Source of the DNA: Desulfobacteraceae bacterium
GTDB taxonomy: Bacteria > Desulfobacterota > Desulfobacteria > Desulfobacterales > UBA11574
Direction of reading: 5' to 3'
Assembly (NCBI GenBank): GCA_029857875.1
Contig: JAOUGB010000023.1
Location: 1 to 12,408 of the forward strand
Length of the DNA: 12,408 bases
Below, piece by piece: positions 8,155-11,446 of this stretch (its first letter is position 1; every line of letters begins with the position of its first letter). Made by a program: the position numbers and the translations under genes. Below the pieces are notes generated by a model. It was given only the letters and a program-made list of their open reading frames with translations, had not been told where the DNA came from and searched no databases.

Positions 8155-8349
8155 TCAATCATCTTCTATGATAATGGCATCGGCGCCGCATTCATCTGCA
8201 GCCTGCCTAACCAGCGCCTCGTATTGTGCGGGGACTTCATCCACCTTAACCATAGACTTCAGTTCGTCTTCATCGTATTCGAAAACTTCAGGACATAAGT
8301 CGTTACAACGCCGATCTCCCATGCAATTTTCGGTGACTTTTACTTTCAT
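8155..8349 (-). CDS. Monocluster [4Fe-4S]/[3Fe-4S] ferredoxin with Asp ligand
   Basis: This 64-residue low-potential electron carrier is acidic and cytoplasmic. The cluster motif is C9-M-G-D12-R-R-C15-N-D-L-C19-P, with the remote ligand C54 near the C-terminus. The second ligand position, usually Cys in Desulfovibrio-type ferredoxins, is Asp12, as in the Pyrococcus furiosus ferredoxin, where this favours conversion between [4Fe-4S] and [3Fe-4S]. Cys19 corresponds to the residue that forms a disulfide in related ferredoxins, but its usual partner position (46) is Leu. The start is ATG at 8349, with AAAGGAG six bases upstream; a longer open frame reaches 8445 but overlaps the flavodoxin gene and lacks a ribosome site. 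It closes the osmC-rubrerythrin-flavodoxin cluster and may also serve the adjacent korAB as electron acceptor. Confidence 0.92.
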   Translation of the reverse strand: MKVKVTENCMGDRRCNDLCPEVFEYDEDELKSMVKVDEVPAQYEALVRQAADECGADAIIIEDD

Positions 8350-8386
8350 CTTTTTCTCCTTTTTCAACAAATTTAAAGCCGTTGGG

Positions 8387-8830
8387 TTAAGCAAACTTCT
8401 GACCAATGGCTTTCCCGTAATCTTGGCAGGCACGCGCCCCTTCATCAGTTTTCATGACCTGTTCTTTCAGATTTAATGCACCCAAATCAACCATATCCAT
8501 TTTGAATACGTAAAGCATGGTGTCATATATCATGTCAGCAGATTCCCCACTGTGGGTGTAAGACCCGAATGCGCCCCCCATCTTACCCACCAGATTGGCT
8601 TTTTCTGCCAAGAAAAGAAATGTTTTCATGCCTGCGGTGATATCCCGATGATAAGTGGGACAGCCGAATATAAAACCGTCGTATCCTCCCATATCCTTTT
8701 CATCTTTTATTTCAGAGATTTTTTTCAGCTCCGCGATGTTTCCAGTGAGACGGACACCTTCAGCGATATATTCCGCCATTTTTTCCGTAATTCCAGTTCT
8801 GCTGTAATATCCGATAAGTACTTTCGCCAT
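8387..8830 (-). CDS. Flavodoxin-family protein (single domain)
   Basis: This is a 147-residue flavodoxin-fold protein predicted to bind FMN and carry electrons in the cytoplasm. The phosphate loop is YYSRTGITEKMA (8-19). The isoalloxazine-contacting loops are FGCPTYHRDI (55-64) and GAFGSYTHSGES (86-97). The last loop resembles the flavodoxin domain of FprA-type flavodiiron proteins, but the metallo-beta-lactamase oxidase domain is absent here. ATG at 8830 is chosen because AAGGAGG lies seven bases upstream and because it starts the first beta strand directly. Open reading upstream of it overlaps rubrerythrin. It is 41 bp after the rubrerythrin stop and 37 bp before the ferredoxin start, so it is cotranscribed. 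It could donate electrons to rubrerythrin or to the OsmC-like protein; neither is shown. Confidence 0.9.
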   Translation of the reverse strand: MAKVLIGYYSRTGITEKMAEYIAEGVRLTGNIAELKKISEIKDEKDMGGYDGFIFGCPTYHRDITAGMKTFLFLAEKANLVGKMGGAFGSYTHSGESADMIYDTMLYVFKMDMVDLGALNLKEQVMKTDEGARACQDYGKAIGQKFA

Positions 8831-8871: not shown

Positions 8872-9369
8872 TTAATCCACCTTGGAAAAAGCCTTGATAT
8901 TGGCGCTGCAAACCGGGCATGTTTCCGGAGGTTCATTTTCACAGGTATAGCCACACACAGCGCAGACATAATAGCAATCCACGGCTTCAGGATTATCAAG
9001 ACTGTCCAGAGCCTTCTGGTAAAGACCGGCATGGATTTTTTCAACTTCATTAGCAAAGGTAAAGCTTCTTTCGGCTGCTTTTTCTCCTTCTGATTGTGCT
9101 GCGTCGATCATTGCCGGATACATACTTTTGAACTCATGGGTTTCACCGGCAATGGCCTCTTTGAGGTTTTCAGCGGTTGATTTTACTCCTCTTAGAACCC
9201 TCAGATGTGCATGGGCGTGGACGGTTTCAGCCTCTGCAGCCGCCCTGAAAAGGTTGGCAACCTGAGGATAACCTTCCTGATCGGCCTTTTTTGCAAATGC
9301 AAGATACTTTCGGTTGGCTTGGGATTCCCCGGCAAATGCTTCCAGTAAATTTTGTTCTGTTTGACTCAT
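8872..9369 (-). CDS. rbr: Rubrerythrin
   Basis: This 165-residue non-haem diiron peroxidase reduces H2O2 to water in anaerobes. The N-terminal four-helix ferritin-like domain carries diiron ligands in the AFAGES segment (E15), E48-x2-H51, E76 in AGETHEF, and E110-x2-H113. The C-terminal rubredoxin-like domain has C136-x2-C139 and C151-x2-C154 and relays electrons to the diiron site. Length and domain order are normal for the family. ATG at 9369 has AAGGAGG six bases upstream. It starts 23 bp after the OsmC-like stop and is followed by flavodoxin and ferredoxin. The cluster therefore pairs two peroxide-handling proteins with two electron carriers. No regulator is visible in it. Confidence 0.96.
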   Translation of the reverse strand: MSQTEQNLLEAFAGESQANRKYLAFAKKADQEGYPQVANLFRAAAEAETVHAHAHLRVLRGVKSTAENLKEAIAGETHEFKSMYPAMIDAAQSEGEKAAERSFTFANEVEKIHAGLYQKALDSLDNPEAVDCYYVCAVCGYTCENEPPETCPVCSANIKAFSKVD

Positions 9370-9392: not shown

Positions 9393-9854
9393 TTAGTCTT
9401 CCATGGTCAGTTCATGGTTGATATCAATGCAACCGATGACGCTTTGGGCTCCGGGGCACAATTTCAAATAGGATTCCAGCGCATCTTTTGCCGCTGTCCT
9501 CTTTTCTTTTGGCAATTTAAGCCAGTAACTGACGTTAATGCGTGTAATTTTCAAAACACCGTCGACGTCTTCGATGTCGCCGGTGACGATGGCTTTAAAC
9601 AAATCTCGAAAGGTCCGAATCTTTTTGCCGGCCAGCACCGCGGCCAGTGTGCCCATCATTCAGCCGCCCACAGCACCGACAATGTGATCTAATGTTGCCG
9701 CATGTTCTTCTTCCGGATCAACTTTATAGAAATTTTTGATTCCCCCGTGGACCCCGTAATAGACTGGTTCAGCAAAACCCTTGATCACGGCTTTCCGGGT
9801 AGGCCCCATTTCTCTCGTGATCGTAATATGTGATGTGTGGACAATTTCACCCAT
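9393..9854 (-). CDS. OsmC-family protein with predicted selenocysteine (in-frame UGA)
   Basis: Read through one in-frame UGA at 9660-9662, this gene encodes a 153-residue OsmC-family protein, a thiol-dependent hydroperoxide reductase family. Residues 1-64 end in LDHIVGAVGG, then residue 65 (UGA), then MMGTLAAVLAGKK. In OsmC proteins this is the ALGGC site, and the residue after GG is the peroxidatic cysteine. The second redox cysteine is intact at C133 in LKLCPGAQSV. The segment after the UGA continues in the same frame with normal family sequence for 88 codons to a TAA. A hairpin with a GGU loop lies just downstream of the UGA. The start ATG at 9854 has AAGGGGG five bases upstream, while the ATGATG after the UGA has no ribosome site. 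Selenocysteine forms of OsmC-like proteins have been reported in computational selenoproteome surveys. A nonsense mutation or two separate peptides are the alternatives. Confidence 0.85.
9628..9647 (-). promoter_or_regulatory. Candidate bacterial SECIS element
   Basis: Starting 13 nt after the UGA, CUGGCC pairs with GGCCGG (six pairs, one G-U). Two further G-C pairs close a three-base loop GGU at 9637-9639, leaving one bulged U on the 3' side. The loop lies 21-23 nt after the UGA; in Escherichia coli fdhF the GGU is at about 19-21. A GU-containing apical loop at this distance is what SelB-dependent bacterial SECIS elements require. Confidence 0.65.
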
Positions 9855-9976
9855 AATTTCCCCCTTGATTATCAGTTTTAGTCAAATTGTCACCCCGCAC
9901 AACAGGTAAATTATATTAATGATTTTAAATGATATATGTTAAGACCATCATATGGGCAATGGTTCAAGTCGATTCA

Positions 9977-11446
9977 TCAATGGATCCGCATGCCCATGAT
10001 CGGCCACAGAACGTAAACTGCAAAACCGGTTACTGCGATCAGCAAAATACTGGCCGGTATTCCGTATAGAAAGAATTCAGCGGGTGAAAACTGTCTGGAT
10101 TCATATGCGATGGCATTTGGAGCGGCGCCGACAAGCAGCAGAAACGGCATTCCTGACGTGACCAAGGATGAAAAAAGGATGACATCCGGTGCGACACCGA
10201 TATAAGAAGTAAGCACCAAGGCAACCGGCAGGGAGATAGCGATGGCCGCAACGTTCATTAAAAAATTGGTCATCATCATAACGAAAAATGCAATACCCAT
10301 AATAAAGAAGAAACTGCTTGAATTATGGAATATCATCAACCATTTTATCGCAAGCCACTTGGCTGCACCTGTTTGCCAGAGGCAAAAACCCATACTCATG
10401 GCACCTGCAAAAAGCAGGATGATATTCCATGGTATTTCTTCAAGATCATCGATATCCAGGATGCCTGTAATAAAAAAAAGAATCGTTGATGTTAAGATAA
10501 TGGCGGTTTTATTGAGCATCTTAAACGCCGGAAAAAAGGAACTCAGAGACATTGCCAGAATACAGGCAAAGACGATGAGCAGGGCGATTTTTTCTTTTTT
10601 GGTGACCGGTCCCAGCTTTTTATTGAGCTGTAAGGCCCTTTCTCTTAACCCTGGAATAACGCTCTTTTCGGGCTTGAAGAAAATCATAAAAAATATCCAC
10701 AATAAAAAAACCATCAGCCACCCGATGGGGAGCATGTAATAGCTTAATTGGAAAAATGTGATGTCCTGGCCAATGACGTCATTATAAAAACCTATGGCAA
10801 CCGCACCCCGTGCAGCTCCTAATAGCGTTACAATGCTTCCTGCCCCGGCGACATAAGCCATGCCCATAAAAAGCCCCTTGCCAAACTTTGTTGCTTGGTC
10901 TTCTTCTCCATAAAGCCCGTAAATCGAAACAAGGAGCGGAAATATGGTTGCCGCTACAGCTGTATGGGCCATTATGTGAGTCAAAGCTGCGATCAACACA
11001 AAACAGCCGAGATAAATCATGCTGGTTTTTTCGCCGACGATCACTAGCATCTTATAGGCCATCCGTTTGGTGAGTCCTGTTTTTGTAAAAACCATTCCGA
11101 TGACGATAGAGGCGAAAATAAACATGACCGATGGGTCCATAAAGTCCGTGAACGCCGCCCTGGCCGGACGGATAAGAAAATAGACCTGAAGGACGCCAAT
11201 GGCAAGGCTGGTGACGCCGACAGGTACGACTTCAAAAACCCACCAGATTGTGGCAAACACAGATATCGCCAGAGCGCCTTTTCCCTCTCTGCTCAATACA
11301 AAATGTTTTCCGGCCGGATCGATGGCGTCTGACCACGGTGGTGCATAATACACCAGTGCAAAGAGAAATATACCGGCAACAAGAAAAATAAAATGTTTTG
11401 CGTTAAAACGACCGTTGTTAATCTTTAATTCAACATCTCCTGCCAT
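9977..11446 (-). CDS. SLC13/DASS-family anion transporter, atypical SNT motifs
   Basis: This 489-residue inner-membrane transporter of the divalent anion/sodium symporter family has about eleven hydrophobic segments and two re-entrant hairpin regions. Family features include ITGILDIDDLEEIPWNIILL (327-345 region) and the C-terminal VGAAPNAIAYESRQFSPAEF (439-457 region). In Na+-coupled members both halves carry an SNT motif that binds Na+ and substrate carboxylate. Here the first is A160-H161-T162 and the second M397-N398-V399. The partner loop, usually G-T-P-P-N, reads GAARGAVAIG (210-219). Substrate and coupling ion may therefore differ from dicarboxylate transporters; sulfate, sulfonate or another organic anion are possible. 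ATG at 11446 has only a weak GGA site. It is 56 bp after the CBS-domain gene and probably in its operon. Confidence 0.88.
   Translation of the reverse strand: MAGDVELKINNGRFNAKHFIFLVAGIFLFALVYYAPPWSDAIDPAGKHFVLSREGKGALAISVFATIWWVFEVVPVGVTSLAIGVLQVYFLIRPARAAFTDFMDPSVMFIFASIVIGMVFTKTGLTKRMAYKMLVIVGEKTSMIYLGCFVLIAALTHIMAHTAVAATIFPLLVSIYGLYGEEDQATKFGKGLFMGMAYVAGAGSIVTLLGAARGAVAIGFYNDVIGQDITFFQLSYYMLPIGWLMVFLLWIFFMIFFKPEKSVIPGLRERALQLNKKLGPVTKKEKIALLIVFACILAMSLSSFFPAFKMLNKTAIILTSTILFFITGILDIDDLEEIPWNIILLFAGAMSMGFCLWQTGAAKWLAIKWLMIFHNSSSFFFIMGIAFFVMMMTNFLMNVAAIAISLPVALVLTSYIGVAPDVILFSSLVTSGMPFLLLVGAAPNAIAYESRQFSPAEFFLYGIPASILLIAVTGFAVYVLWPIMGMRIH

Follow-up and report, generated by a model that had tools for sequence, protein, structure and literature searches.

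Does a UGA in the middle of a long reading frame end the gene, or does it specify selenocysteine (Sec)? A locus on the minus strand of the window, by which we mean the whole 12,408-nucleotide stretch of DNA that was analysed, raises this question. Its frame opens with an ATG at 9854, runs for 64 codons to a UGA (9662-9660) and continues for 88 codons to a TAA (9395-9393). Translation table 11 splits it into two short reading frames, so such a gene is easily missed in standard annotation. We propose that the two stretches are one gene in which Sec is inserted into an OsmC-family protein. We put the probability of this reading at about 0.93, and comparison of the sequence with its relatives strongly supports it. 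The features of the locus and its surroundings are the following.

9393..9854, minus strand: predicted OsmC-family selenoprotein gene, 153 residues plus a TAA stop (open reading frames, Pfam match, UGA in relatives)
9660..9662, minus strand: in-frame UGA, codon 65, probably read as selenocysteine (UGA in all 116 loci that align over 140 residues or more; alignment with the peroxidatic Cys)
9456..9458, minus strand: codon for C133, putative resolving Cys (Cys in 116 of 116 full-length rows; CP-motif alignment)
9628..9647, minus strand: putative SECIS stem-loop, arms 9647-9642 and 9633-9628, loop 9641-9634 (covariation, published model)
9860..9866, minus strand: AAGGGGG, likely Shine-Dalgarno sequence of the full-length gene (by eye)
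8872..9369, minus strand: rubrerythrin gene, next downstream, a neighbour in close relatives only (Pfam, 2.8e-26)
8387..8830, minus strand: flavodoxin-like gene, downstream (Pfam, 4.1e-9)
8155..8445, minus strand: 4Fe-4S ferredoxin-like gene, downstream (Pfam, 1.1e-13)
9977..11446, minus strand: Na+:sulfate-symporter-type transporter gene, upstream (Pfam, 1.2e-42)

The layout is the one that an earlier note had described from the letters alone, with the right coordinates but no strand. Two open stretches of 64 and 88 codons (9854-9660 and 9659-9393) lie in the same frame with no base gained or lost, one UGA stands between them, and the read-through product has U65 in AVGG-U-MMGTL and C133 in LCPGAQ. 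Purifying selection acts in this same frame on both sides, with a summed pN/pS of 0.12 before the UGA and 0.21 after it (66 pairs, 12 genes).

Read through with C in place of U, the product matches Pfam OsmC (PF02566) at 38.7 bits against a gathering score of 27.5 (1.4e-9). A single-sequence search of the PDB returned no chain up to E 1, the best NCBIfam match (0.068) is below its cut-off, and a profile built from 64 relatives gave weak matches to solved OsmC/Ohr chains (best E 0.0055). In the profile alignment with 1ukk, 2bjo, 6d9n and 1nye, U65 falls at the peroxidatic Cys and C133 aligns with the Cys of the CP motif, which bears out the earlier placement of the UGA and the claim that the resolving Cys is kept. 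G17, R20, A22, G34, H36, Y43, T54, U65, G68, T69, C133 and P134 are invariant in the 64-row alignment; L050, a relative that this alignment omits, carries Ser at position 69. D56 is nearly invariant in these rows and aligns with a Glu of 1nye, and R20, though invariant, lies outside the aligned part of the solved chains. The window's clade shares with the Ohr/OsmC thiol peroxidases the peroxidatic position and the CP motif with its resolving Cys, and its invariant N-terminal Arg may be a further likeness; it differs from them in having Sec for Cys and D56 for the Glu of 1nye.

These residues suggest a chemistry. The accessible text of a study of Xylella Ohr gives Cys61 as the peroxidatic residue (Cp), with Arg19, Glu51 and the resolving Cys125 (Cr), and has the enzyme re-reduced by lipoylated proteins (PMC5962072). 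U65, R20, D56 and C133 may fill the Cp, Arg, Glu and Cr roles of Ohr. SelB and tRNA-Sec would decode the UGA at codon 65, directed by the putative SECIS hairpin 18-19 nt downstream, and in the Ohr/OsmC fold Sec would take the place of the peroxidatic Cys. If the protein works as Ohr does, R20 and D56 would polarise the selenolate, U65 would attack a hydroperoxide to give a selenenic acid, C133 would resolve this by forming a selenenylsulfide, and re-reduction would come from a cellular dithiol. When the anaerobe is exposed to oxygen, the enzyme would probably clear organic peroxide or hydrogen peroxide, beside rubrerythrin in close relatives. On this analogy we lean towards a peroxidase.

Function is also where the one serious competing explanation lies: the protein may be a selenoprotein but no peroxidase, acting on persulfides, thioesters or another electrophile like a YhfA-type OsmC. 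This is possible, if the less probable assignment, and it concerns function only. The sequence is far from Ohr and OsmC proper, as the profile and NCBIfam values above indicate; the Ohr/OsmC family has members of unknown activity according to the accessible text of PMC5962072, and available excerpts of PMC4069020 report one OsmC-like protein without thiol-peroxidase activity. The neighbouring genes, too, are not conserved. Against these points stand the invariance of U65, C133 and R20 in the 64 rows, which agrees with Ohr and its Cp, Cr and Arg, and the rubrerythrin gene that adjoins the locus in 9 of the 13 distinct loci of the window's family. That neighbour was found at none of the 82 other distinct loci (many with flanks of only about 1.7 kb, some much less). 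A flavodoxin neighbour occurs at 7 loci, and no neighbour gene recurs widely beyond close relatives. An assignment of function from an operon was rejected on the rubrerythrin counts, and the argument for a peroxidase rests on the fold family.

How widely is the UGA kept? Genomes were searched with stops read through and Cys set at position 65, so that Cys homologues were not disfavoured. The OsmC query matched in 13 of 24 genomes of the window's family; in the larger samples it matched in 57 of 291 (order) and 41 of 395 (phylum). The gene, which had been called rare, is not rare within Desulfobacterota. A scan of a collection of 84,980 species by exact peptide patterns, which reach close relatives only, gave 23 loci in records titled Desulfobacterales, Desulfobacteraceae, Desulfobacterota, Syntrophobacterales or Deltaproteobacteria, or in the isolates Desulfosarcina cetonica and Desulfacinum infernum. 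Records of D. cetonica JCM 12296 and D. infernum DSM 9756 supplied the relatives L052 and L056.

The UGA is kept throughout this set. Among 124 examined loci (the window's own counted, and many being one gene fetched twice), the aligned codon 65 is UGA in 119 and Cys in 3, and 2 are fragments without coverage there. The 3 Cys loci, included for contrast, are generic OsmC genes of 26-29% identity. The examined loci leave aside two pieces with UGA in G340 and the generic Cys matches of G488 and G510. Of the UGA loci, 116 align over at least 140 residues, and none of these has another codon at 65; 95 are distinct by DNA over 240 bases, the window included. They fall into form A (U-MMG-T, 79 genes) and form B (U-LTG-T, 16 genes); in the 64-row alignment, form-B rows share 37-45% identity with the window protein. 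No Cys form of this clade was found among the examined Desulfobacterota loci.

If the UGA specifies Sec, a signal should direct its insertion, and comparison supports a covarying hairpin after the UGA as the putative SECIS. We took the published bacterial SECIS model as set out in the accessible part of PMC13188914, with a cut-off of -7.5 kcal/mol or lower. The window gene (L018) conforms (7 bp, 6-nt loop CGGUGC, 19 nt, -9.7 kcal/mol), the seventh pair being a possible G-U between 9641 and 9634 that leaves the loop CGGUGC. Conforming hairpins occur in 86 of the 95 distinct genes, that is, in 70 of 79 of form A, where 9 miss the model, and in all 16 of form B. The controls gave 0 of 33 for Cys paralogues, 69 of 2468 for mock positions in the same genes and 237 of 1900 for synonymous resamples (195 of 1580 for form A, 42 of 320 for form B).

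The same stem emerges without the model. Given 77 form-A rows over 60 bases from the UGA, RNAalifold, unaided, returned one stem that pairs columns 16-22 with 29-35, with changes on both sides at 3 of its 7 pairs: C-G in 48 rows against U-A in 21; G-C in 62 against C-G in 6 and A-U and U-A in 1 each; and C-G in 70 against G-U in 1. Across the outer six pairs 96.1% of cells are paired, against a shuffle mean of 89.8% and with 0 of 500 shuffles as high; when the partner is slid, at most 52% of cells pair. The first base of the Leu codon at +5 (CTG or TTG) tracks the second base of codon +11 (counts 51, 4, 1 and 13; Fisher p 8e-10, uncorrected for kinship). When the tree is built without the hairpin stretch, its well-supported branches hold only 3 independent pairs, which is not enough to reach significance; about 1.9 of the 3 agree in direction and none runs opposite. 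The commonest synonymous codon takes a share of 0.76 at codons +4 to +13 and 0.54 elsewhere (78 form-A genes), which makes these the most constrained ten codons of the part examined.

Form B taken alone covaries weakly (26 of 500 shuffles as high) because it hardly varies. Folded by itself, the window stretch does not outdo its shuffles (z 0.24 and -0.22); the case for a SECIS rests on comparison. Rfam at gathering thresholds gave no match in the window.

The hairpin and the codons around it bear on another explanation, namely that the gene is split, with the UGA a true stop, the adjacent ATG restarting translation and two OsmC halves interacting. The window does have ATG ATG directly after the TGA, and codon +1 is ATG in 78 of the 95 distinct genes. 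Codon +1 is CTG in the other 17, however, and 16 of these, all of form B, lack an ATG at both +1 and +2 and yet keep the UGA. The earlier note had stated that the restart codon lacks a ribosome site, and we agree: the internal ATG is preceded by GTGGGCGGCTGA, with no clear site by eye. A split gene would moreover be without the active-site residue and would leave both the hairpin and the synonymous constraint unexplained. We regard it as very improbable.

Still less credible is a pseudogene or a sequencing error, that is, a nonsense mutation in the active-site codon. It is true that a single TGA breaks the frame and that decayed copies exist elsewhere, frameshifted in G215, truncated in G088 and as 5' remnants in G480. 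The identical UGA nevertheless recurs in 95 distinct genes from many genera, purifying selection acts on both sides of it, and a covarying hairpin follows it. Random stops or decay in close relatives, which the earlier note had named as a sign against its reading, did not appear among the family's full-length copies, each of which has one TGA and no other stop.

The partial copies themselves take several forms. G480 has three 5' remnants of about 27-42 codons (L220, L221), of which two lie within a repeat of 95% identity, and the genome gave no match to the whole OsmC selenoprotein gene; this is loss by truncation. The one-contig genome G088 has, besides a full-length copy, a second (L166, C1:44421-49636) that covers residues 1-73 only and retains the UGA. 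In G215 (L167) the gene is split between two frames, with TGA and TAA in the main piece, through decay or an assembly error. G017 has a separate C-terminal half (L032, residues 87-153, 65% identical) besides its full-length gene.

Returning to the reading of the UGA as Sec, the genome has part of the machinery for it. Its selB (372.5 bits, whole model), selA (613.9 bits) and selD (364.6 bits) all score above curated cut-offs. This part of the expected machinery is present as the earlier note had proposed to check; tRNA-Sec, on the same list, did not turn up in the assembly (G000), which is 87% complete and in which five matches below the cut-off are tRNA-Trp, Arg, Ser, Ser and Leu. Two of the four other genomes of the genus, G022 and G023, have a tRNA-Sec at 75 bits, which ARAGORN likewise calls tRNA-SeC(tca), and G020 and G021 have none over the cut-off. 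The neighbourhood of selC in G023 aligns at 90% with contig C172 of G000 up to the first base of C172, from which some 690 bases would remain to selC. The simplest reading is that the absence of tRNA-Sec in G000 is an assembly gap. Across the order sample, selA (E up to 1e-60) is present in 271 of 291 genomes, so its co-occurrence with the OsmC gene is uninformative; among the 57 genomes where OsmC matched, 5 are without selA (G001, G020, G177, G178, G291), all of them in 410-600 contigs.

The selD gene of the window's own genome (L015, contig C423) has an in-frame UGA in KTCGUASK, which we take to be the usual Sec site of SelD, and would be a second selenoprotein gene there.

That UGA is instead read as Cys or Trp through another suppressor or a reassigned code has hardly any probability, since the tRNA-Sec missing from the own assembly is set against a UGA that is the ordinary stop of 5 of the 13 listed window genes (so the code is not reassigned wholesale), against the presence of selA, selB and selD and against the conserved SECIS-like hairpin. 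We reject this explanation overall, along with the split gene by reinitiation and the pseudogene or error.

How does the predicted selenoprotein relate to those already described? OsmC-like selenoproteins are known from surveys, as the earlier note had said; the motif in the window, UxxG, is not the UxxT of those surveys. The accessible text of the Sargasso Sea survey lists three sequences with UxxT and draws a bacterial SECIS for one of them (Zhang et al. 2005, PMC1088965). An OsmC-like row with 5 as its first number stands in the available part of the 2008 GOS survey (PMC2398784), and the available parts of reviews of 2022 and 2026 (the latter PMC13188914) carry OsmC-like as one UxxT entry. 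The Sargasso/GOS form and the window's share Pfam OsmC/COG1765 and Sec at the redox residue, and differ, in a comparison made by motif, in UxxT against the UxxG of forms A and B. Published UxxT sequences include MCS5647933.1 and MBR72571.1. The literature searched, which left most subscription journals out, had no mention of a UxxG OsmC form in the text it made available, and 'OsmC' is absent from the main text of Kivenson 2021. The window's clade, UxxG in Desulfobacterota, looks separate from the published UxxT form.

We placed the clade on a tree of 61 OsmC domains: 14 of form A, 7 of form B, 7 other UGA rows and 33 Cys paralogues. Forms A and B make one branch (support 100/98), which joins the Cys rows L151-L153 at 98/93. 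These nearest Cys rows, 3 of the 5 generic Cys OsmC matches of the phylum sample, keep the equivalent of C133 and differ from the window's clade in their Cys codon, in identity (26-29%) and in lacking a hairpin that conforms to the SECIS model. The tree needs four Sec/Cys changes, whose direction is not readable, and its starred branches alone force four; treekit warns that long branches meet, the UxxL group included.

Taken together, we think it somewhat probable that forms A and B are a Sec-only OsmC clade across Desulfobacterota, distinct from the UxxT form, on a scaffold with at least four Sec/Cys switches, and that the clade may run a reaction that Cys could not sustain. If the clade truly lacks a Cys form, it would be a natural setting in which to ask what makes selenium necessary for a peroxidase-like enzyme, and named isolates exist for such work. 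Repeated exchange of Sec and Cys at one codon of one fold would also provide a comparative set on the origin of SECIS elements.

Apart from the window's clade, the tree holds three more UGA groups among or beside Cys rows: L212-L213 (UxxM), L214 (UxxT) and L215-L218 (UxxL). All are OsmC genes from the same order whose active-site codon is UGA, and they apparently represent further Sec/Cys switches. L214, the tree's one row of the UxxT type, groups with Cys proteins of another branch. A further candidate, L219, was dropped as a Sec form; its TGA lies away from the Cys position. As to hairpins after the UGA, L212 and L215-L218 do not reach -7.5, L213 barely fits the SECIS model (-7.7) and in another place, and L214 fits it (-11.0). 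A CTGC-GGTY-GCAG hairpin is nevertheless common to L215-L218, 20 bases downstream of the UGA.
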